From: a virus
Direction: 5' to 3' (one strand)
Virus record (IMG/VR): IMGVR_UViG_3300037343_000165
Coordinates: 1 to 20,643 of that record
DNA length: 20,643 nt
The position numbers and the translations under genes are program-made. Shown here piece by piece: positions 2,427 through 20,402 of the stretch. Position 1 is the stretch's first letter, and each line of letters opens with the position of its first letter. The notes beneath the pieces were generated by a model. It saw nothing but the letters and a program-made list of their open reading frames with translations, had not been told where the DNA came from and ran no database searches.

Positions 2427-3293
2427 TTACGCGCCGGGCATGCCGCCGCCCGGCGGGGGTGCCATGTATCCGCCGTAATTAGAAGGGGATGCAGTCGCCC
2501 CACCGGGTGAACTGGGCGGTGGCTGCGTCGTCCCATGTCCGTTTCCCACCGGCATCCCAGACGGCGCCGGTGCGGGGCCGGGCATCCCAGACGGGACCGG
2601 TGCGGGGGCGGGCATACCGGACGGGGGCGGTGCAAGCTGAGGGGCGCCACCCGGAGCCTGTGGCGTCTTGGTCATGCCTGCGGGCATGTAGGCGCCCGGA
2701 CCGGCGCCAAGCTGCTGTTCAAGCGTCGGGCCGCCGACGATCTCCGGGCCATAGCCGACCAGACAGATCGTCTGAGGGTTCAAATAAACCCCCGCCGTAT
2801 GGTCTTGATTGCCGTTGGCCGAGGTCGAGAACGGGACGGTGACGTAATACCCCCTCTTGATCTCGGACGGGTCGCAATAGGTCGGGACGGCGCCGTGGTA
2901 TTTCGCCGACGCGATCGGCAGCGTGGTCGAGAATTTTGCGATCCAGCACCCTGCCCCGTGCTTCCATCGCAATTCCTGCTGGCCGCTCGTCGGATTGGCG
3001 CGCATTTCATCGCCATCAACCACCTTCCACGAAAACGCCGCGGCGGCCAATCCTGTGTTGATCTGCGCCATGATGTGCGGGGCGTTGGCGTATCCGGCCT
3101 GAGCGGCCTTGAAAAGCAAGCCGAGCATTTCGTTCATGCCGGGGGCGTTCTTTTCGATCGCCACGGCAAACCAATATGACTGCTTTTCCTCGGAGATCGG
3201 GCGGTTGTTCTGGTCGGTGGTCTGCTTGGTCCACGGATCGCCTGAGATGAGGCGGCCGACCGGGGAATTTCCGTATTCTGTGTGGCGTGACAT
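2427..3293 (-). CDS. Phage ssDNA-binding-like protein (DUF2815-type) with Pro-rich repeat tail
   Basis: This 288-residue protein has a folded part at about 1-200 and a long proline/glycine/methionine-rich tail. KRGYYVTV (146-153) followed by AGVYLNPQ (167-174) and a GYGPEI block (180-185) matches what I recall of phage single-stranded-DNA-binding proteins of the DUF2815 group, which coat ssDNA during replication and recombination. Residues about 218-248 are three 10-residue units ending in PSGMP, followed by PPP and GGG stretches. Unlike T7 gp2.5 or bacterial SSB, the C-terminus (GGGMPGA) is not acidic, so the usual protein-recruiting acidic tip is missing. The ATG shares one base with the TAA of the GapR gene upstream. 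The family call is by recognition only; the location between polymerase and nuclease genes supports it. Confidence 0.65.
   Translation of the reverse strand: MSRHTEYGNSPVGRLISGDPWTKQTTDQNNRPISEEKQSYWFAVAIEKNAPGMNEMLGLLFKAAQAGYANAPHIMAQINTGLAAAAFSWKVVDGDEMRANPTSGQQELRWKHGAGCWIAKFSTTLPIASAKYHGAVPTYCDPSEIKRGYYVTVPFSTSANGNQDHTAGVYLNPQTICLVGYGPEIVGGPTLEQQLGAGPGAYMPAGMTKTPQAPGGAPQLAPPPSGMPAPAPVPSGMPGPAPAPSGMPVGNGHGTTQPPPSSPGGATASPSNYGGYMAPPPGGGMPGA
2551..2640. repeat. Three tandem 30-bp repeats inside the ssDNA-binding-like gene
   Basis: Three consecutive 30-base units begin at 2551, 2581 and 2611. The first two differ at only a few positions and the third is more diverged. Each encodes ten residues containing PSGMP on the minus strand. 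Unit number could change by replication slippage without shifting the frame. Confidence 0.85.
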
Positions 3294-5597: not shown

Positions 5598-5706
5598 TTT
5601 CGTCTCCGGTGCGGGTTGATATTATCTGTTAATAGCCCGCGCCGGGGCTGTTGTAAATAGCTATTATTACCTTGACGCCTGCGCGCGGCGCGGCCTAGGG
5701 TTGGGC
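5598..5706. promoter_or_regulatory. Divergent early control region with AT-rich dyads
   Basis: This is the only gap separating the leftward and rightward blocks, so it should carry both early promoters. Visible elements are a dyad TATTA-5 bases-TAATA (5620-5634), a 10-base palindrome AATAGCTATT (5656-5665), and GGGTTGAT (5614-5621), which matches the core of the 12.7-kb repeats. A plausible rightward promoter is TTGACG (5672-5677), 17 bases, then CTAGGG (5695-5700). Its -10 match is weak and lies within about ten bases of the ATG, so it may be leaderless or wrong. Confidence 0.45.
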
Positions 5707-6477
5707 ATGAAAAAATCAAACCCAGCCCCCGACAGCAACATTGTAGTGTGGTTTTCCAACGGTGCTGCCAGCGCCATCGCTTGGAAAGAAACCGTCAGGC
5801 GTTACGGCAGTCAATGCAATGTGATCGCCGTAAATAATCCTGTGGCAGAGGAGGACGCGGACAACGAGCGGTTCGCTTTAGACGTTGCAGAATGGGTGGG
5901 GCAACCCCTCATTCATTACAAAAATCCAAAGTGGCCTGAAGCGTCCGCAGAAGTTGTGTGGGAAAAGCGTAAAGGAATGTCATTTCCGAATGGGGCGCCA
6001 TGCACTGTTGAACTCAAAAAAAAGGCCAGAGAGCATTTTGAGCGTGAAAATCGTGTGGACTGGCATGTTTTGGGCTTCACGTCCGACGAAAAGAAGCGGT
6101 CAGATCGCTTTATGTTGACGGAGCGGGAAAACGTCCTGCCAGTTTTGATCGAAGCTGACATATCAAAACTGGAATGCTTTGAATTGATCGCTGCGGCGGG
6201 CATCGCATTGCCAGCCGTCTATTTGCGCGGATACCCGAACGCAAATTGCATAGGGTGTGTCAAGGCAACCAGCCCGACATACTGGAACCACGTCCGCACT
6301 GCGGACCCTGAGGTTTTCCTGAGACGCGCTGTGCAGTCTCGCGCGTTAGGTGTGAGATTGGTCAGGGTCAAGGGCCAAAGGTTGTTTCTTGACGAACTGC
6401 CAGCGGATGCGATCGGCAGGCCGATGAAAAACCTAGTCTTTGAATGCGGTATATTTTGCGAAGAGCCTGAGCAGTGA
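5707..6477 (+). CDS. PP-loop / PAPS-reductase-like enzyme (adenine nucleotide alpha-hydrolase fold)
   Basis: This 256-residue protein has VVWFSNGAASA at about 13-23, the pyrophosphate-binding loop of the PAPS reductase and ATP-pyrophosphatase superfamily. Asn sits where the classic SGG loop has Gly. Downstream cysteines appear in APCTVELKKKA, NANCIGCVKA and a C-terminal ECGIFC. Such cysteine-bearing phage homologues may activate a substrate with ATP and transfer sulfur, or act in DNA or nucleotide modification; the true substrate is unknown. The first ATG (5707) fits the fold better than the TTG two codons earlier. The gene is visibly richer in A+T than its neighbours, hinting at separate acquisition. 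Its stop overlaps the next GTG start. Confidence 0.7.
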   Translation: MKKSNPAPDSNIVVWFSNGAASAIAWKETVRRYGSQCNVIAVNNPVAEEDADNERFALDVAEWVGQPLIHYKNPKWPEASAEVVWEKRKGMSFPNGAPCTVELKKKAREHFERENRVDWHVLGFTSDEKKRSDRFMLTERENVLPVLIEADISKLECFELIAAAGIALPAVYLRGYPNANCIGCVKATSPTYWNHVRTADPEVFLRRAVQSRALGVRLVRVKGQRLFLDELPADAIGRPMKNLVFECGIFCEEPEQ

Positions 6478-8625: not shown

Positions 8626-9068
8626 CCATCGACAAGCAATTCCGGGCCAGTTTCGTCCGCCGCTGGCACACCAACCCCGATCTGGCGCAGACCGTTGACA
8701 CGCTCGCGGGACACGGCGGGCGGGTGGCGCGCCTGATCTTGAAGCTATGGCCCGATGCGTCCCGCGCCCTGCTGCACTGGGCGTTGGTGCATGACGACGG
8801 GGAATCGGTGGTCGGTGACGTGCCATCCGCGATAAAGGGTGCAACGGTGATGGACCGGCAAGAGCGGACCGCGCTGGACCGTATCTGGCCGGGAATGCCA
8901 GACCTAACGCCAGATGAATATGACCGGCTGAGATTTGCCGATCGGCTGGACGCCTATATGTGGGCGCAACATCATGCGCCTCACACGCTGACCGGTGACG
9001 GCTGGCCTGAGTGCCGCCGCTGGATCTTTGCACAGGCTGAGGCGCTGGGCGTGTCGGTGTCGGTATGA
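8622..9068 (+). CDS. HD-domain phosphohydrolase, YfbR-like
   Basis: This 148-residue protein contains LVHDDGESVVGDVPSAIK (55-72), the hallmark of YfbR-type HD nucleotidases. Candidate metal ligands are His31 (AGHGGRV), His57, Asp58 and Asp107 (FADRLDAY). YfbR removes phosphate from deoxyribonucleoside 5'-monophosphates; phage versions may tune nucleotide pools or clear one dNMP to support modified DNA (inference). I chose the ATG at 8622, which forms ATGA with the preceding stop; the reading frame is open further upstream but there it runs through the neighbour. It sits directly before a methyltransferase-like gene. Confidence 0.75.
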   Translation: MTIDKQFRASFVRRWHTNPDLAQTVDTLAGHGGRVARLILKLWPDASRALLHWALVHDDGESVVGDVPSAIKGATVMDRQERTALDRIWPGMPDLTPDEYDRLRFADRLDAYMWAQHHAPHTLTGDGWPECRRWIFAQAEALGVSVSV

Positions 9069-9661
9069 GGGTCTTGATCGCCTGCGAGTTCAGCGGCACC
9101 GTGCGCCGCGCCTTCACCGCGCGCGGTCACGATGCGTGGTCTTGCGATCTGCTACCCGCCGAGGACGGATCGAACCGGCACATCGTCGGCGACGCGCGCG
9201 ACCTACTGAATGACGGGTGGGACTTGCTTATGGTCGCGCACCCGCCTTGCACGCGCCTCTGCAACAGCGGCGTGCGGTGGCTCACCAAGGCCCCGCCAGG
9301 TCGCACGCTCGCAGATATGTGGGCGGAGCTTGAGACGGGCGCCGCGCTGTTCTCCGCGTTTTGGAATGCGAAAATCCCGCGTATAGCTGTTGAGAACCCG
9401 GTAATGCACCGGCACGCGAAGGCGTTGATAGAGGACTACGCGCCGCCCGCTCAGAGCGTCCAGCCGTGGCAGTATGGTCATGGCGAGGTCAAGCGGACTT
9501 GCCTGTGGTTGCGCGGCCTGCCGGTATTGACGCCGACCGATGTGGTCGAGGGCCGTGAGGCGCGCGTGCATCGGATGCCGCCAGGGCCGAACCGTGGCAA
9601 AGAGCGCAGCCGCTTCTTTTCAGGAATTGCCGAGGCAATGGCGGACCAGTGGGGTTCTTGA
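9065..9661 (+). CDS. Compact C5-cytosine-methyltransferase-like protein
   Basis: This 198-residue protein has a recognisable but reduced C5-methyltransferase plan. CEFSGTVRRAF (7-17) stands for the SAM-binding motif I, and GHDAWSCDL (21-29) for motif II. AHPPCTRLCNSG (58-69) resembles the catalytic PC loop with Cys62, and IAVENPVMH (107-115) matches the ENV motif. The protein ends without a clear target-recognition domain or QRR motif, and is about half the usual length. It could be a methyltransferase with relaxed or no sequence specificity, or a related nucleotide-modifying enzyme. Such short versions are common in phages and are often simply called DNA methyltransferases. Start overlaps the HD gene stop by ATGA. 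Confidence 0.65.
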   Translation: MRVLIACEFSGTVRRAFTARGHDAWSCDLLPAEDGSNRHIVGDARDLLNDGWDLLMVAHPPCTRLCNSGVRWLTKAPPGRTLADMWAELETGAALFSAFWNAKIPRIAVENPVMHRHAKALIEDYAPPAQSVQPWQYGHGEVKRTCLWLRGLPVLTPTDVVEGREARVHRMPPGPNRGKERSRFFSGIAEAMADQWGS

Positions 9662-13429: not shown

Positions 13430-13755
13430 TGCAGATGCCCCGGAACAAATTCGATACGCACGCCGCCTGCGCGCGGATGGACGCAGACAGCACGCTCCAT
13501 CACCGGGAACGCTGGCCAAGCCTCGCCTTTGTTTGGGACGAGTTGGACGACCTGCGGGCCGAGTCTCAAACGGCAGTCGACTCTAAAGACCACGCTTCGG
13601 TCGAAAACGAACTCAAAGAGGCGTTGGACGAAATTGATGAATTCGACGCCATCACAGATCAGCGTGACGCGCTATCAATGGCGGTCAAGCTGTTGCTGGA
13701 ACCGTGGCCCGACAAAGACAAAATCGAAAACATTTTGATGGGGGGAGGGGCATGA
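13429..13755 (+). CDS. Acidic helical protein of unknown function
   Basis: I do not recognise this 108-residue protein. The middle is strongly acidic and helical (WDELDDLRAESQ, ENELKEALDEIDEFDAITDQRDAL), compatible with a short coiled coil, and is followed by LLLEPWPDKDKIENIL. The ATG at 13429 overlaps the previous stop (TGATG) and the TGA overlaps the next ATG, so it belongs to a coupled cluster. An open reading upstream to 13357 runs through the paralogue gene and is rejected. Confidence 0.55.
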   Translation: MQMPRNKFDTHAACARMDADSTLHHRERWPSLAFVWDELDDLRAESQTAVDSKDHASVENELKEALDEIDEFDAITDQRDALSMAVKLLLEPWPDKDKIENILMGGGA

Positions 13756-14054
13756 CGTTGCTGGCGCGGGATTGCAAATGGTGTGGTGCATCGATGGAGG
13801 GCAAGCGAAGCGATGCGATCTTTTGCTCACGGAAATGCTACGCAGTGTCATATCGAAAAACCAACCCTGAGTATCAGCGTAAATACCAGCGTAAACACAA
13901 CCGAGACAACCCCGACTATCAGCGTGAATATCAGCGCAAATACCTCCAAGCCAACCCAGACTATCATAGCAATTACCGCCAAGCTAACCGCGAACGGATT
14001 GCTGAACGGGATCGTGTCAAACGTCACGCGCTCAAACAGGAGACAGATCAATGA
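13752..14054 (+). CDS. Zinc-finger protein with basic NPxY 15-residue repeats
   Basis: This 100-residue protein has an N-terminal zinc-binding pattern, Cys8-x2-Cys11 and Cys25-x3-Cys29 (CKWCG, FCSRKC), typical of small zinc ribbons in HNH-like and DNA-binding phage proteins. From residue 38 three 15-residue units start NPEY, NPDY and NPDY and contain YQRxYQRK runs, giving a very basic, aromatic tail that ends in an Arg/Lys-rich helix. The design suggests nucleic-acid binding; no HNH catalytic residues are visible. ATGA couplings join it to both neighbours. Confidence 0.6.
   Translation: MTLLARDCKWCGASMEGKRSDAIFCSRKCYAVSYRKTNPEYQRKYQRKHNRDNPDYQREYQRKYLQANPDYHSNYRQANRERIAERDRVKRHALKQETDQ
13863..13997 (+). 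repeat. Three 45-bp coding repeats in the zinc-finger gene
   Basis: Units start at the AAC codons at 13863, 13908 and 13953. The first two are closely similar in DNA and protein; the third is diverged after its first 15 bases. Inside each of the first two, a shorter TATCAGCGT-like unit is itself repeated. Confidence 0.75.
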
Positions 14055-14245
14055 TGCCCGCACCCCGCCCCGTGGCGCCCGTTCAGGACATTACCATGTG
14101 GAACAGCCCTGACGGTCAATGGTTGGCCCTGCTGAAATATAACGGGGTTTTCACGCATGTGATCCGTGATGATCACGACGAGGCCCAGGCAGCCGCCGTT
14201 AAATTCTGGCGCGAGCATACCAGGGAAGGGAGGAACTCAAAATGA
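14051..14245 (+). CDS. Small hypothetical protein
   Basis: This 64-residue protein is not recognised. The visible sequence is ITMWNSPDGQWLALLKYNGVFTHVIRDDHDEAQAAAVKFWREH, which looks like a small beta-sheet followed by a helix. The ATG overlaps the zinc-finger gene stop and its TAA overlaps the next ATG's region, so position in a coupled cluster is the main evidence that it is translated. It contains no membrane segment or signal peptide. Confidence 0.5.
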   Translation: MMPAPRPVAPVQDITMWNSPDGQWLALLKYNGVFTHVIRDDHDEAQAAAVKFWREHTREGRNSK

Positions 14246-14643
14246 CGTTTGACCCCGTGACGCGCGCCGCGCATTACAACGATGGCCCGATCGAGGTGAT
14301 CCACCTTTCGCGCCGCCTCGGCGCCCATCTCTCGCAAATCGTGCAATACGCGGCCCGTGCCCATCTCAAAGGGGATGAGGTGCGGGATCTTCGCAAAGCA
14401 TTATTTTGGGCGGATGACCTGCTCAAGACGATGGCGAACAAGTCGGTAAATCTCGCCTGCATGGCTGAGCCGGATTTTACGTCGACCGAGTTTACGCGGC
14501 AAATGCGCGAGGGGCGCGGTCGGATTATTCGCATGGCATGGCGGGCTGCGTGGGCGCGTGACGCCAGGATAGCGATACGGTGTGTGCAGGATATGCGAGA
14601 CACCATCGCGGCGGAAATTGCGCGGATGGAGGACGAGGCATGA
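14242..14643 (+). CDS. DUF3310 family protein
   Basis: In this 133-residue protein the segment HYNDGPIEVIHLSRRLG...IVQYAARAHLKG..VRDLRKALFWADDLL (about 11-62) matches the DUF3310 pattern of phage proteins, sometimes labelled nucleotide-kinase-like. The biochemical function is not established. The remainder (70-133) is basic and helical (RGRIIRMAWRAAWARDARIAIR). An excellent GGGAGG ribosome-binding site precedes the ATG at 14242, and the TGA overlaps the methyltransferase ATG as ATGA. Confidence 0.75.
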   Translation: MTFDPVTRAAHYNDGPIEVIHLSRRLGAHLSQIVQYAARAHLKGDEVRDLRKALFWADDLLKTMANKSVNLACMAEPDFTSTEFTRQMREGRGRIIRMAWRAAWARDARIAIRCVQDMRDTIAAEIARMEDEA

Positions 14644-16199
14644 TGCCGACTGCACCGAAGGGAAATAATTTTCCCGAGTATAAGACGGTTTTGACCGCCA
14701 GCCTCGTGCCATATGCGCGCAACGCTCGCACGCACAGCCCCACCCAGGTCGATAAGATCGCCGCCTCGATCCGGGAGTTTGGCTTTCTCAACCCGATCAT
14801 CACGGACGGGCAGAACGGGATCATCGCCGGTCACGGGCGCGTCATGGCGGCCCAAAAGCTGGGGCTTGATACACTACCGACCATTGACGCGGCACACCTG
14901 AGTGAAGCGCAGAGGCGCACTTACGTGCTGGCAGACAACCGTATGGCGCTGGACGCCGGATGGGACAATGACCTGTTGCGGATCGAGTTGCAGGATCTGG
15001 AAAGCGCAGGGTTCGACCTTTCTCTGACCGGCTTTGACTTGGGCGAGATCGCTGCGCTGACGCTGGACGCCACAGAGGGCCTGACCGATCCCGACGATGT
15101 GCCTGACGCGCCTGCCGTGCCCGTTACGGTCTTGGGCGACGTGTGGTTGCTGGGGCGGCATCGTTTGATGTGCGGGGACTCTACCAGCATTGACGCGGTG
15201 GAGCGGCTGATGGATGGGCGGAAGGCTGCATTACTCCACGCTGATCCACCTTACGGAATGGGTAAAGAAGGCGAAGGGGTCGCAAACGATAATTTGTATC
15301 AAGACAAGCTAGACGCATTCCAGATGGAATGGTGGACGACGTTCAGGCGTGTTCTTGAGGATAACGCCAGCGCGTATATATGGGGCAATGCACCTGACTT
15401 GTGGCGGCTTTGGTATAATGGCGGATTGTCTGGTTCGGAGCGGATGACAATGCGAAACCAGATTGTTTGGGACAAGAAACACGGGCAGGGAATGAGTAGC
15501 GAACGGCACCGAATGTTTCCGACTGCCACCGAGCATTGCCTTTTCTTTATGATGGGCGAACACGGCTTCAATACTAATTCGGATAACTACTGGGACGGGT
15601 GGGAGCCGATCCGGTTGTATCTTGAAACGGAAATGAACAAATGTGGCGGACAAAATAAATGGAAAGCCGCTTTAAGTAATCAAATGGGTAGTCACTACTT
15701 TACAAAAAGCCAGTGGTTACTCCCTACAAAAGAGGCTTACGAAAAATTGCAGGCGTTTGCAAAAGGTAACGGTTTCAAGCGCGACTATGACGAACTCAAG
15801 CGCGACTATGACGAACTCAAGCGCGACTATGACGAACTCAAGCGCGAATTTTATGCAACGCGGGCATATTTTGACAACACCCATGACAACATGACCGACG
15901 TGTGGGGGTTTGGGCGCGTGACCGGAGAAGAACGGCACGGTCACGCAACACCCAAACCGGTTGAAATGATGCAACGGGTAATGCGTTCAAGCCTTGCAGC
16001 TGGTGGATTGTGCGTGGAGCCGTTCGGAGGGTCTGGCTCAACACTGATGGGTGCGGAAAAAACGGGAAGGGTGTGCTATTCAATGGAGTTGCAGCCCAAG
16101 TATTGCGACGTGATAATCCAACGCTGGCAAAATTTCACGGGCCAGACCGCCACCCTTGAAGCCACGGGCCAGCCGTTCGAGGCGCCTTGTCATCTATAA
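14640..16199 (+). CDS. ParB-like nuclease domain / DNA methyltransferase fusion
   Basis: The protein has 519 residues. Residues 15-100 form a ParB/Sulfiredoxin-type domain with SLVPYARNARTHS, IREFGFLNPI and GIIAGHGR. The methyltransferase follows: LLHADPPYGM (198-207) is catalytic motif IV, and EPFGGSGST near 460 is SAM-binding motif I. That order places it in the beta class, which methylates adenine N6 or cytosine N4. Between them lies a specificity region that includes nearly four RDYDELK heptads (about 379-403), presumably helical. It probably protects phage DNA from restriction or marks it; the ParB-like part may bind or nick DNA. The ATG at 14640 is coupled to the previous stop. The catalytic half is visibly poorer in G+C than the ParB half. 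Confidence 0.9.
   Translation: MMPTAPKGNNFPEYKTVLTASLVPYARNARTHSPTQVDKIAASIREFGFLNPIITDGQNGIIAGHGRVMAAQKLGLDTLPTIDAAHLSEAQRRTYVLADNRMALDAGWDNDLLRIELQDLESAGFDLSLTGFDLGEIAALTLDATEGLTDPDDVPDAPAVPVTVLGDVWLLGRHRLMCGDSTSIDAVERLMDGRKAALLHADPPYGMGKEGEGVANDNLYQDKLDAFQMEWWTTFRRVLEDNASAYIWGNAPDLWRLWYNGGLSGSERMTMRNQIVWDKKHGQGMSSERHRMFPTATEHCLFFMMGEHGFNTNSDNYWDGWEPIRLYLETEMNKCGGQNKWKAALSNQMGSHYFTKSQWLLPTKEAYEKLQAFAKGNGFKRDYDELKRDYDELKRDYDELKREFYATRAYFDNTHDNMTDVWGFGRVTGEERHGHATPKPVEMMQRVMRSSLAAGGLCVEPFGGSGSTLMGAEKTGRVCYSMELQPKYCDVIIQRWQNFTGQTATLEATGQPFEAPCHL
15776..15847 (+). repeat. Tandem 21-bp repeats (3.4 copies) in the methyltransferase gene
   Basis: Three identical 21-base units run 15776-15796, 15797-15817 and 15818-15838, followed by the first nine bases of a fourth. 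Each encodes the heptad KRDYDEL in cyclic order. Perfect identity implies recent slippage expansion, and the 21-base unit preserves frame whatever the copy number. Confidence 0.95.
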
Positions 16200-16221
16200 T
16201 TGCCAGCGCTATATTGGGCAG

Positions 16222-16635
16222 ATGATGGAAATGCCGAAAGACCCCCGCGGACGTAAACCCCACGCGCCAAGCGATGCGCAGCGCAAGCTGGTGCAGCTTC
16301 ACGCGACGGTTGGAACGACGCAGGAAATGATCGCCCGCGTGATAGGCATCGACGAAAAGACATTGCGCCTGCACTACCGCGACGAACTGGACCTGTCGAT
16401 GGCGCTGGCAAACGCCACAATCGGTGGCGCGCTGTTCAACAAAGCCAAGGGTGGCGACACGGCGTCCATGACGTTTTGGCTGAAAACGCGAGCAAGGTGG
16501 CGCGAAACGGCGGATGTGAACCTGATCAGTGAGGACGGCAGCATGTCGCCCAAGGCCGCGCTGGACATGTCCCGCCTGTCACCCGAAGCACTTGCAGAAA
16601 TTGTGGCGCTTGGCGATGCACCTGACTCCGCTTGA
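16222..16635 (+). CDS. Probable terminase small subunit
   Basis: This 137-residue protein would recognise phage DNA for packaging. Residues about 25-60 form a helix-turn-helix (TTQEMIARVIGIDEKTLRLHYRDEL), followed by ALANATIGGALFNKAKGGDTASMTFWLKTRARWRE, a pattern common in small terminases and related phage HTH proteins. It overlaps the large terminase gene by 20 bases, the standard arrangement. The start is uncertain: ATGs at 16222, 16225 and 16231 are all possible and none has a strong ribosome-binding site. It starts 22 bases after the methyltransferase stop. Confidence 0.75.
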   Translation: MMEMPKDPRGRKPHAPSDAQRKLVQLHATVGTTQEMIARVIGIDEKTLRLHYRDELDLSMALANATIGGALFNKAKGGDTASMTFWLKTRARWRETADVNLISEDGSMSPKAALDMSRLSPEALAEIVALGDAPDSA

Positions 16636-18016
16636 CATAATTGCCGCTGAAAAGGAATTGTGCCGTCGATCGCTGGCGTATTACGCAAGGCGCGCATGGC
16701 ACGTCCTAGAGCCGTCCACACCGCTCAAGTGGGGCTGGGCGCTGGACGCCATCTGCACGCACCTAGAGGCCGTCACGCGCGGCGACATCAACCGTCTGCT
16801 GATGAACGTGCCGCCTGGCACCATGAAGTCGCTGCTGACCGGTGTGATCTGGCCGGCTTGGGAATGGGGGCCAAAGGCGTTGCCTCACATGCGGTTCCTC
16901 GGCACGGCTCATAAGCAAGACTTGGCCGTGCGGGACGCAATGAAATGCCGTCGCCTGATACAATCTGACTGGTATCAGACACGCTGGCCGATGAACCTGA
17001 TGGCCGACAATAACGCCAAGCTGCGGTTTGAGAACGATAAGACCGGGTTCCGGGAGGCGATGGCGTTTGAAGGCATGACCGGATCGCGCGGCGACAGAGT
17101 GTTAATTGACGATCCGCACAGCGTTGCGGACGCCAACAGCGTGCAGAAACTTGCCACAGGCGTTGCGACATTTCGGGAAGCCCTACCGTCCCGCGTCAAT
17201 AATGAAGATTCGGCTATTGTGATCATCATGCAGAGATTGCACGAGTCCGACGTTTCCGCCGTGGCGATTGATCTGGGATACACCCATCTTTGCCTGCCGA
17301 TGCGGTTTGAAGCGGACCGCTGCTCTCCCGTTGACCCGCGCACGATCGAGGGCGAACTGTTATTCCCGGATCGGTTCCCAGAACATCAGGTTGCGCAGCT
17401 TGAAAAGACCATGGGGATCTATGCCAGCGCCGGACAGCTTCAGCAAAGGCCCGCACCCCGCGGCGGCGGTATGTTCAAGCGGTCGGATTTTCGCGTGGTG
17501 CGGGCCGAGCCTGCGGGCTATACGTGGGTGCGCGGATGGGATTTGGCCGCAACGAACGATCCAGCCGCAGCCCGGACGGCTGGCGTCAAGGTCGGCATCG
17601 GCCCTGACCGGCGTATCTGCATCGCCCATGTCGTGAAAGACCAGGTGAACGCGGCCGGGGTTGAACGGTTGCTTGCCAGCACGGCGGCCGCGGATGGGCG
17701 CGCGGTCCGCGGATCGATCCCTCAAGACCCGGGCAGCGCTGGCAAGTCCTGGGCATTGCACCTTCTCAAATCGGCTCTGATGGGGTATAGCTACACGTCA
17801 AGCGTCGAGACTGGCGACAAAGAAACCCGCGCAATGCCACTCGCGGCACAGGTCGAGGCCGGGAACGTGGACATTGTGGCAGGCGATTGGAATGGTGATT
17901 TCTTGGACGAGGCCGCAACGTTCCCGATGGGTAAATTCAAAGATCAGATCGACGCCGCAACCCGCGCGTTTGACATGATCGCGGGCGTAAATAATTCGTG
18001 GGCTGGAACAATATGA
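16616..18016 (+). CDS. terL: Terminase large subunit
   Basis: This 466-residue motor ATPase and nuclease packages DNA into proheads. The ATPase P-loop is VPPGTMKS (65-72) and Walker B is VLIDDP (162-167), followed by VIIMQRLHESD (coupling region). The C-terminal RNase H-like nuclease begins near RGWDLAAT (Asp309), with later acidic residues including KFKDQIDA near the end. The length is normal for the smaller phage large terminases. The ATG at 16616 lies within the small-terminase gene and starts the recognisable N-terminus (MHLTPLDIIAAEKELCRRS). The stop overlaps the portal ATG as ATGA. Confidence 0.9.
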   Translation: MHLTPLDIIAAEKELCRRSLAYYARRAWHVLEPSTPLKWGWALDAICTHLEAVTRGDINRLLMNVPPGTMKSLLTGVIWPAWEWGPKALPHMRFLGTAHKQDLAVRDAMKCRRLIQSDWYQTRWPMNLMADNNAKLRFENDKTGFREAMAFEGMTGSRGDRVLIDDPHSVADANSVQKLATGVATFREALPSRVNNEDSAIVIIMQRLHESDVSAVAIDLGYTHLCLPMRFEADRCSPVDPRTIEGELLFPDRFPEHQVAQLEKTMGIYASAGQLQQRPAPRGGGMFKRSDFRVVRAEPAGYTWVRGWDLAATNDPAAARTAGVKVGIGPDRRICIAHVVKDQVNAAGVERLLASTAAADGRAVRGSIPQDPGSAGKSWALHLLKSALMGYSYTSSVETGDKETRAMPLAAQVEAGNVDIVAGDWNGDFLDEAATFPMGKFKDQIDAATRAFDMIAGVNNSWAGTI

Positions 18017-19302: not shown

Positions 19303-20402
19303 AACTGACAGATTTCGCTTCGCTTGACACCGTTCGGATCACCGACGAGGGGTATCTGGTCGCAAACGTCCGCACCGCCCGGATCGGAACGCAGGATTAT
19401 CTCGGCGCGGAATTGAACCGGCCCGACCTTGACCGGGTGACAGTTTACCGCGACGAATCCGAGGTGTTCCTGAAGTCCAGCCTCCAAACATTTGGCCTGT
19501 TGCCAGTCACTGATGATCACCCCGCCGATCTGGTGACGGCCGACACGGCTCGCATGGTGTCAGTCGGAACCACGAACGAGGAAGTCCTGCGCGACGGTGA
19601 GTATCTGCGCATCGGGATCAAGTTGACCGATGCCGCCACGATCCGAAAAGTGCAGGACGGCAAACGTGAGTTGAGCGTGGGCTACGTGTCCGAACTGGTC
19701 TGGGGCGACGGGATTGCGCCGGACGGGACGGCGTATCAGGCGCGACAGACCAACATCGTCGGCAACCACATCGCCATTGTGGCCGCCGGACGTGCAGGGC
19801 CAATGGCCCGCATCGGTGACGCCATTGCGCGGTGGGGCGCATCCCCCATCACAGACGAAAAGGACGCAATCATGGCCGATGCCATTCAGACGCGGACGGT
19901 CCTGATCGACGGCCTTTCCGTCGTCACGACCGATGCAGGCGCGCAGGCGCTTGAAAAGCTGCAAAAAACCATCACCGACATGACCGTTGCCGAAAAGAAG
20001 GCAATGGACAAGAAGGACGGCGAACTGGCCGCCAAGGATGCCGAACTGGCGGCCATGGCCAAGGCGGTCTTGTCCGATGCCGACCTTGACGCCAAGGTGG
20101 CGGCCCGTGCCGACCTGATCGGCAAGGCCAAAGCGATTGCCAAGGATCTGGCGACGGCCGGTCTGTCCGACGCCGCCATCCGCCGCGCTGCTGTCGTGTC
20201 GCGCTTGGGTGACGCGGCCCTGATCGGCAAATCCGAGGCATACGTCGATGCGCGGTTCGACATCTTCTCTGAGGACGCGGTCAAAGGCGACCCGGTGGCC
20301 GATGCGCTCAAGACGGGCGTGGCTGTTGTGATCGATGCTCGTGCCGAATACGTCCAGCGCCTCAGCACGGCCTATCTGAACTCTGCTGGCAAAGGAGCGT
20401 AA
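19299..20402 (+). CDS. Prohead protease (DUF2213) with scaffold-like C-terminus
   Basis: The protein has 367 residues. The N-terminal 175 residues match DUF2213, a phage head-maturation protease family: TDDHPADLV (His74), GKRELSVGYVSE (Ser126) and GNHIAIV (His157) are the likely active-site elements. Residues 190-300 are Ala/Lys/Asp-rich and strongly helical, with alternating charge (KKAMDKKDGELAAKDAELAAM), as in internal scaffolds. The fusion suggests one polypeptide both organises and then cleaves the prohead core. It is coupled to the portal stop as ATGA. Confidence 0.8.
   Translation: MKLTDFASLDTVRITDEGYLVANVRTARIGTQDYLGAELNRPDLDRVTVYRDESEVFLKSSLQTFGLLPVTDDHPADLVTADTARMVSVGTTNEEVLRDGEYLRIGIKLTDAATIRKVQDGKRELSVGYVSELVWGDGIAPDGTAYQARQTNIVGNHIAIVAAGRAGPMARIGDAIARWGASPITDEKDAIMADAIQTRTVLIDGLSVVTTDAGAQALEKLQKTITDMTVAEKKAMDKKDGELAAKDAELAAMAKAVLSDADLDAKVAARADLIGKAKAIAKDLATAGLSDAAIRRAAVVSRLGDAALIGKSEAYVDARFDIFSEDAVKGDPVADALKTGVAVVIDARAEYVQRLSTAYLNSAGKGA

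Follow-up and report, generated by a model that had tools for sequence, protein, structure and literature searches.

A length-variable heptad repeat beside an exchangeable module in predicted phage DNA methyltransferases

The methyltransferase gene and its 21-bp array

The window analyzed here (the whole stretch of 20,643 nucleotides from one virus record) carries on its plus strand a gene that, judging from its motifs and profile matches, is a predicted phage beta-class DNA methyltransferase. In the residue numbering used throughout, the Gly codon at 14637–14639 is residue 1 and the ATG at 14640 is residue 2; an alternative upstream start (GTG at 14580) is possible. The features of the gene are listed below.

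14640–16199, + strand: DNA methyltransferase gene, 519 aa, with a ParB-like N-terminus and a beta-class N6/N4 methylase
14673–15077, + strand: ParB/Noc-like N-terminal domain, residues about 13–147 (VIA Z 15.7 to Noc 7ng0)
15243–15254, + strand: DPPY, catalytic motif IV, residues 203–206 (from sequence)
15474–15533, + strand: V1, small exchangeable patch, residues about 280–299 (differs in 40 of 97 gene pairs)
15600–15773, + strand: V2, exchangeable module, putatively helix-turn-helix-like, residues about 322–379 (differs in 42 of 97 gene pairs)
15775–15847, + strand: heptad rod, 3.5 perfect 21-bp copies (TRF and sequence; helix predicted at residues 384–407)
15840–15905, + strand: conserved return segment following the rod, KREFYATRAYFDNTHDNMTDVW, residues 402–423 (from conservation)
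16017–16040, + strand: EPFGGSGS, motif I/AdoMet site, residues 461–468 (from sequence)

The Pfam profile PF01555 matches residues 199–493 with 103.1 bits (cut-off 26.7), phrog_498 (DNA methyltransferase) matches with E=2.9e-119, and the fold matches those of MboIIA and M.BceJIV (Z 24.8 for each). The beta class is defined by DPPY, then a recognition region, then the F-G-G motif I. That order is found here, with DPPY at residue 203, an insert at about 280–423 and EPFGGSG at 461. The methylase region contains an insert of about 115 aa. Among 68 aligned sequences, D203, P204 and P205 are invariant, as are F463 and G465 of EPFGGSGS and R409, F412 and W423 of the return segment. The ParB-like N-terminal fold was recognized by fold matching (rmsd 2.5 over 130 residues to Noc 7ng0; Z 15.6 to ParB 7bnr, VIA), and Pfam ParB_N scored 25.8 bits, just below its cut-off of 26.3. 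This N-terminus (residues 2–145, 14640–15071) is also mosaic among genes whose methylase backbones are at least 90% identical, with 14–46% of 74 pairs below 70% identity per 12-residue bin.

In the window, the methylase lies upstream of genes for the terminase small and large subunits, portal and head protease. It adjoins the terminase small subunit gene here (14640–18016) as well as in a Streptococcus phage (L268) and a Faecalibacterium phage (L277), while one or a few small ORFs separate the two in Staphylococcus phages L269, L271 and L274, and the genes are not side by side within the stretch seen in an Acinetobacter phage (L275) and a Vibrio phage (L276). The methylase frame is broken, by an in-frame stop or into several annotated ORFs, in Staphylococcus phage records L273, L274 and L278, and is intact in the Staphylococcus relatives L270–L272.

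The original prediction described three perfect 21-bp tandem copies and a partial fourth at 15776–15847, encoding heptads within the methyltransferase and forming an arm between its catalytic motifs. The array is as described and its end is correct, but it begins one base earlier, at 15775. TRF reports period 21, 3.5 copies, 100% matches and a score of 146, the highest of the 18 arrays listed in the window. In an exact-run scan of periods 4–119, the longest period-21 run was 52 bases, starting at 15775; the runner-up was period 42 (31 bases, in the same 15775–15847 array), and every other period gave runs of at most 14 bases. The array translates in frame to three KRDYDEL units (15777–15797, 15798–15818 and 15819–15839) followed by KREF, and it does lie between the DPPY and EPFGGSG motifs.

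Chance or codon bias as the origin of the repeat was ruled out: when the gene was shuffled 200 times among synonymous codons, the maximum length of a period-21 run had a mean of 11 bases and never went beyond 32, and given the codon usage of the gene, agreement at all 14 codon pairs has a probability of 9e-6. A DNA- or RNA-level element at the rod is disfavored because rod codons vary between genes while the heptad pattern stays. A sigma-70/terminator scan of 14000–16700 found nothing within the 21-bp repeat; one promoter-like match starts at the repeat edge (15877–15848, minus strand), among four promoter-like matches in the scanned region compared to 1.7 expected by chance.

Other repeats and genes were observed in the window. 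ORF 13704–14054 (+), which has a weak HNH endonuclease match (phrog_8660, E=5e-5), contains a 45-bp repeat at 13862–13966 (2.3 copies, 81% alike) that encodes basic YQRKYQRK-type repeats following a cysteine-rich stretch. A 30-bp repeat at 2551–2633 (2.8 copies) encodes a Pro/Met-rich PSGMPxPAP linker in gene 2427–3293 (−), and in the gene for the head maturation protease, KDAELAA heptads are encoded by another 21-bp repeat at 20013–20055 (two copies, 86% alike). A PAPS-reductase-like gene (5701–6477, phrog_424) and a second methyltransferase-like gene (9065–9661, phrog_757) had no Pfam match at E≤0.1.

Heptad number and homogenization among relatives

Relatives were collected with a protein scan of viral contigs (447 matched, 80 kept) and a degenerate two-heptad DNA pattern (110 stretches matched, 108 used as loci). 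The methylase was found in 185 of the 188 sequences compared (187 loci and the window), the other three being contig-edge fragments of that protein. Across 119 distinct genes, a set that includes the window's gene (L081) and one member of another family (L138, left out of the homogenization, tree and cassette analyses), canonical heptads numbered two in 49, three in 44 and four in 5 (98 of 119 with two to four), none in 7 and one in 14 (21 of 119 with none or one); heptads were counted by a regular expression that under-counts degenerate units, for example in L043, L047, L066 and L106. On these counts, the heptad repeat is a family trait.

The units vary between genes (KREHDEL, KREYDDL, KRDYDEL, KKDYDAL, KQNYDEL and others), and neighboring heptads within a gene share 96.5% of their residues. 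Over 147 adjacent heptad pairs (110 genes with at least one heptad, 96 with at least two), codons were identical at 971 of 993 same-residue positions, compared to 48% expected from gene codon usage. Part of this family and all of the second family described below were found through the rod pattern, which partly imposes the heptad residues but not the codons; in the subset of 62 genes found without using the rod, 485 of 495 codons were identical, compared to 50% expected. When last heptads are compared between family-1 genes, codon identity at same-residue positions is 58%, and the pattern [KR][RK][DE][YH][DE]x[LF] is kept although the codons differ. Additionally, the tree requires a minimum of 16 switches at the Tyr/His position, and only 3 of 96 genes are mixed, which indicates that the copies change together. 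By their codons, then, the heptads are young, homogenized copies. In L106, the rod and following residues (KRDFYALKRDFYATR) contain a 7-residue duplication in another register, across the junction of rod and return segment, as if slippage could also begin at that junction.

Copy number was not invariant across related phages. Flanks were clustered by single linkage, with short-flanked loci excluded, and in 6 of 21 clusters with at least 98% identical flanks the copy number was polymorphic, while it was single in the other 15; pairs within clusters are not independent. Two pairs (L140 and L165; L056 and L068) share 600 identical flanking bases and stand one 21-bp unit apart, and L013 (three heptads) and L024 (one) are two units apart on flanks that are 99.7% identical. 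The comparison bears out the earlier proposals that perfect identity reflects recent expansion and contraction and that arm length varies between near-identical relatives, as read from their sequences. In 68 aligned proteins, the stretch from the core to V2 (residues 303–326) is always 24 or 25 residues long, V2 itself differs by a few residues (35–41), and the length from W360 to W423 is 43 or 44 plus a multiple of seven in 55. In its neighborhood, judging from the alignment, the rod alone varies much in length, mostly in 7-residue steps.

A second pattern, EY[DE]xLRR twice followed by PF, matched 74 contigs, and all 74 loci were in frame; most read '..QW.LPT..Y..LR..EYLRREYEDLRREYEDLRRPF'. 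These loci are other, diverged phage methylases with the same type of rod (two to five EYEDLRR units), and the nine sequences seen in part gave no sign of a ParB part. In 63 distinct genes of this family, adjacent heptads share 938 of 988 codons (48% expected), while rod codons compared between genes are 51% identical. None of its seven near-identical clusters was polymorphic in copy number. V2 was below 60% identity in 28 of 49 pairs with at least 80% backbone identity, a comparison that used only frames of at least 300 aa.

Six isolate phages belong to the branch of this second family, including MAR, N15, phiKO2 and mEp460. Their heptads are not identical, and those following the recognition module end in LRRPF in five phages and LRRYF in mEp460. 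The mEp460 gene matches in 1,255 of 5,426 E. coli genomes, and among the 60 matches listed the 43 full-query rows are all exactly 1053 bases. Length thus varies where heptads are identical and is constant where they have diverged, in the branch examined, a pattern that fits slippage.

The rod-bearing relatives examined are metagenomic contigs or metagenome-assembled genomes, and the isolate phages examined that have the insert carry non-identical heptads. Among relatives from bacterial genomes (80 kept of 150), 69 were without the insert, with only 159–172 residues between DPPY and motif I. The RRPF pattern was found in none of 369 genomes in the class of the genome that holds L251 (G001), nor in a further set of three genomes that included G001. 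A tblastn search with a 44-residue rod query gave no match at E≤1 in 50,697 phage records, where low-complexity filtering may hide matches, and a whole-gene DNA search of phage isolates returned 16 records, none covering 80%.

Exchangeable cassettes and the predicted rod

When near-identical genes are compared along their length, identity drops abruptly. Over 97 pairs with at least 90% backbone identity, V1 (about 280–299) and V2 (in this comparison about 330–379) average about 69–76%. With a cassette counted as different below 75% nucleotide identity, V1 differed in 40 and V2 in 42 of these 97 pairs, which are not independent: 34 pairs differed in neither, 23 in V2 only, 21 in V1 only and 19 in both. 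V2 identity was bimodal, with 40 pairs below 60%, none at 60–70%, 5 at 70–80% and 52 at 80% or above. In these comparisons V2 is replaced wholesale, and V1 independently, on near-constant backbones. Of the 19 backbone clusters with at least two genes, 12 were mixed for V1 type, 9 for V2 type and 12 for copy number. In total, 116 genes (two with gapped backbones were excluded) comprise 29 V1 types, 22 V2 types and 63 V1×V2 combinations, and 12 V2 types are found on more than one backbone cluster. The window's own cluster has six genes: L001 differs from the window in V1 type only, while L002–L004 and L043 differ in V2 type only. Canonical heptads number three in the window and L001, two in each of L002–L004, and one in L043 (two if a degenerate MRDYDEL is counted). 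Since V2 and V1 are exchanged wholesale between near-identical genes, a change of target is likely, whether or not rod length matters.

The position of the V2 border was seen in identity profiles of two-residue bins, for which only pairs with the N-terminus present were used (74). In the 15 pairs in which V2 differs and V1 is kept, mean identity is 18–63% over residues 322–377 (one bin reaches 86%), residues 382–387 appear as a gap, and identity is 78–100% from residue 388, the second heptad, onward. The return segment (residues 402–419) shows 88–98% mean nucleotide identity per bin in V2-different pairs. Because identity returns at the second heptad when V2 differs, the rod is, in these alignments, a near-constant 3′ border of V2.

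Several explanations for this arrangement can be considered. The reading that we favor, by a modest degree, is that a length-variable helical spacer joins an exchangeable target-recognition module (V2) to the methylase catalytic core. Neutral length drift is a serious rival to the idea of the rod as a ruler. It is possible, with a lower probability than the favored reading, that the rod is a tolerated, hypermutable linker that merely connects V2 to the core and drifts by slippage between about one and five copies, leaving the methylated motif unaffected. The weak phylogenetic signal of copy number agrees with such drift (at least 36 changes on the 111-tip tree, compared to a mean of 48 and a minimum of 40 in 300 label shuffles), as do the relatives with none or one canonical heptad (21 of 119) and the 18 of 55 V2-same pairs in which copy number nevertheless differs. 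However, copy-number differences are more common in V2-different pairs (27 of 42, with the under-count of degenerate units also affecting this comparison), 7-residue steps are mostly held (55 of 68 proteins), and the heptad pattern is kept despite 58% codon identity between genes, so that the heptad itself looks constrained.

It is unlikely that the main reason for keeping the perfect repeat is its use as a homology block for V2 crossover, with length change as a by-product. The return of identity at the rod in V2-different pairs, and the more frequent copy-number differences in those pairs, are what such a recombination joint would produce. However, 58% of rod codons in family 1 and 51% in family 2 are identical between genes, a level that would make for poor homology between distant donors; conservation at the protein level suggests selection on the helix; and in the window TRF found no tandem repeat bordering V2 on its 5′ side.

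The claim that the arm is helical agrees with the full AlphaFold2 model, in which the rod is a helix at residues 384–407 (block pLDDT 96/91/82); the rod is thus an alpha helix by prediction only. With five of the seven residues of KRDYDEL charged, the model contains a long, charged, partly helical linker of the kind described for M.EcoGII. V2 precedes it as three helices (320–335, 339–346 and 365–375); counting helices of at least four residues before the rod gives three in the full model and four in a module-only model of L033. The best fold match of V2 is the enzyme MPnS (6b9s, Z 5.0, VIA, module-only search), followed by weak matches (Z 3.4–3.8) to repressor-type domains from phages and bacteria (TP901-1 MOR, Lp1 prophage protein 11 and SinR). 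A module-only Foldseek search gave no match at E≤0.001, Pfam and NCBIfam gave the window's V2 module no name at E≤0.01, and HTH_3 matched the mEp460 enzyme at E=0.043 only. V2 is described here as a putative helix-turn-helix-like recognition module. In the L033 model, which has one more heptad, the helix is not longer; the extra heptad is non-helical (block pLDDT 66). In addition, the core-to-V2 link has a constant length, and for a longer rod to move V2 outward some part of the structure would have to bend. Both the constant link and the L033 model count against a rod that positions V2, and the geometry given for it below is provisional.

Another improbable explanation is that the rods of two subunits, or a rod and a partner, pair as a coiled coil through a Tyr/His and Leu stripe, with rod length setting the distance between active sites. 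According to the available text of its report, M.EcoGII elutes as a dimer, but its predicted dimer surface comprises residues 97–110 and 116–140 rather than the linker (PMC11551740). In the heptads themselves, Y/H and L/F stand in 3-4 spacing, and a Pfam leucine-zipper profile matched weakly (HALZ, E=3.3e-4, below cut-off). The rod was also considered as a non-specific DNA binder; heptad net charge is −1 in 194 of 257 units and 0 in 59, so that a basic DNA-binding stripe is unlikely.

An assembly artefact is already disfavored and very improbable; it would mean that short-read assembly had collapsed or expanded the repeat, or attached V2 to a foreign backbone. The rod-bearing sequences are metagenome contigs or metagenome-assembled genomes, and chimeras tend to arise in shared sequence. 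However, identical constructions are seen in more than one dataset (L024 and L025; L002–L004; L041 and L128), the 116 genes hold 63 V1×V2 combinations, and 12 of the V2 types each occur on at least two backbone clusters. The flanks of V2-different pairs average less than 100% identity, so that long exact shared words should be uncommon, and the 73-base array is shorter than ordinary sequencing reads.

Proposed mechanism and comparison with known systems

Under the favored reading of a spacer between V2 and the core, slipped mispairing within the perfect 21-bp repeat, or unequal recombination there, would add or remove heptads, and repeated turnover of the 21-bp units would keep them alike. Seven residues make two helical turns, about 1 nm in length with about −20 degrees of rotation, so the rod helix would keep its phase. 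From helix geometry, each heptad would move the recognition module about 1 nm and turn it by only about 20 degrees. We would expect the rod to determine where V2 sits with respect to the active site, and to be readjusted when V2 changes; a new V2 could be refitted to the core in heptad steps, and target spacing or preference may change. We infer a change of specificity through which the phage would diversify the sites it methylates, most plausibly against host restriction. More tentatively, V1 and V2 patches together with a heptad ruler that retunes the distance between reader and active site could form a combinatorial system that arose in parallel in at least two families. If that were true, phages could alter the sites masked from restriction within very few generations.

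A swappable DNA reader and a stretchable rod may thus let phages change which DNA sites are protected. Some natural variants are distinguished by heptad number alone and others by V2 alone, and they constitute ready allelic series for tests of how methylases read DNA and of phage methylation diversity against host restriction. The enzymes may also serve as a modular scaffold that allows V1, V2 and spacer to be altered individually.

The closest worked example for the proposed rod mechanism, by analogy, is the TAEL repeat of EcoR124, in which two versus three repeats give a gap of 6 versus 7 bp, according to the available text of the reports (PMC3874165; also PMC10030836). The Type IC HsdS subunits of EcoR124I and EcoR124II have a short in-frame tandem repeat that forms a helical spacer of varying copy number, with exchangeable recognition domains beside it. 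HsdS differs in being a separate subunit with two target-recognition domains, no catalytic site and a 4-residue unit, whereas the window enzyme is a single chain with its own methylase core and 7-residue units, and its effect on the target is a proposed one. The gene does not encode a separate subunit without methylase motifs and with two recognition domains and helical regions, as a Type I HsdS would be; the window enzyme may work like HsdS, but it is not HsdS.

Among experimentally known enzymes, the most similar layout is that of the prophage methylase M.EcoGII. For this enzyme the available text describes an AlphaFold2 model with a Rossmann core, a four-helix recognition domain that includes a helix-turn-helix, and a linker that is long, charged and helical in part; the site-specific M.PflMI is without this linker (PMC11551740). 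M.EcoGII is described as non-site-specific (PMC11551740), so V2 and a linker need not mean sequence specificity. M.EcoGII and its lambdoid-prophage relatives (mEp460, N15, phiKO2 and the VHML-like MAR) share with the window enzyme a beta-class methylase with an inserted module and a linker, the module being HTH-containing in M.EcoGII, as far as that report's available text goes, and putatively HTH-like in the window enzyme, but they have no ParB-like domain and their heptads are not identical. The plan of the window enzyme is similar, with an additional ParB-like domain, and linker length varies among its relatives, whereas in the mEp460 type it is constant in the 43 full-length rows among the 60 E. 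coli matches listed. The mEp460 enzyme is taken here to be close to M.EcoGII, and its length (350 codons) and layout fit that assumption. Neither repeat copy number nor cassette exchange is described in the available text of the M.EcoGII paper (PMC11551740).

Exchange of recognition domains at flanking repeats is described for the specificity genes of Type I and Type IIG systems (DOMO; available text of PMC3077401). In DOMO, the domain relocates from one to the other of two sites within a single S gene, unlike the window family, in which the dissimilar patches V1 and V2 are each replaced at their own site and the rod is found on the 3′ side of V2 only. M.BceJIV, MboIIA, CcrM and RsrI have the same catalytic fold (Z 20.8–24.8) but chains of 249–366 residues, which should be too short for a ParB-like domain and a V2–rod insert. 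In searches of open-access papers, none on the rod peptides was found, nor one describing exchangeable recognition domains and repeat-length spacers united in single-chain phage methylases. Swappable recognition domains and repeat-length spacers are each already known; what appears to be new is their union in single-chain phage methylases, where both lie adjacent to each other in orphan phage methyltransferases.
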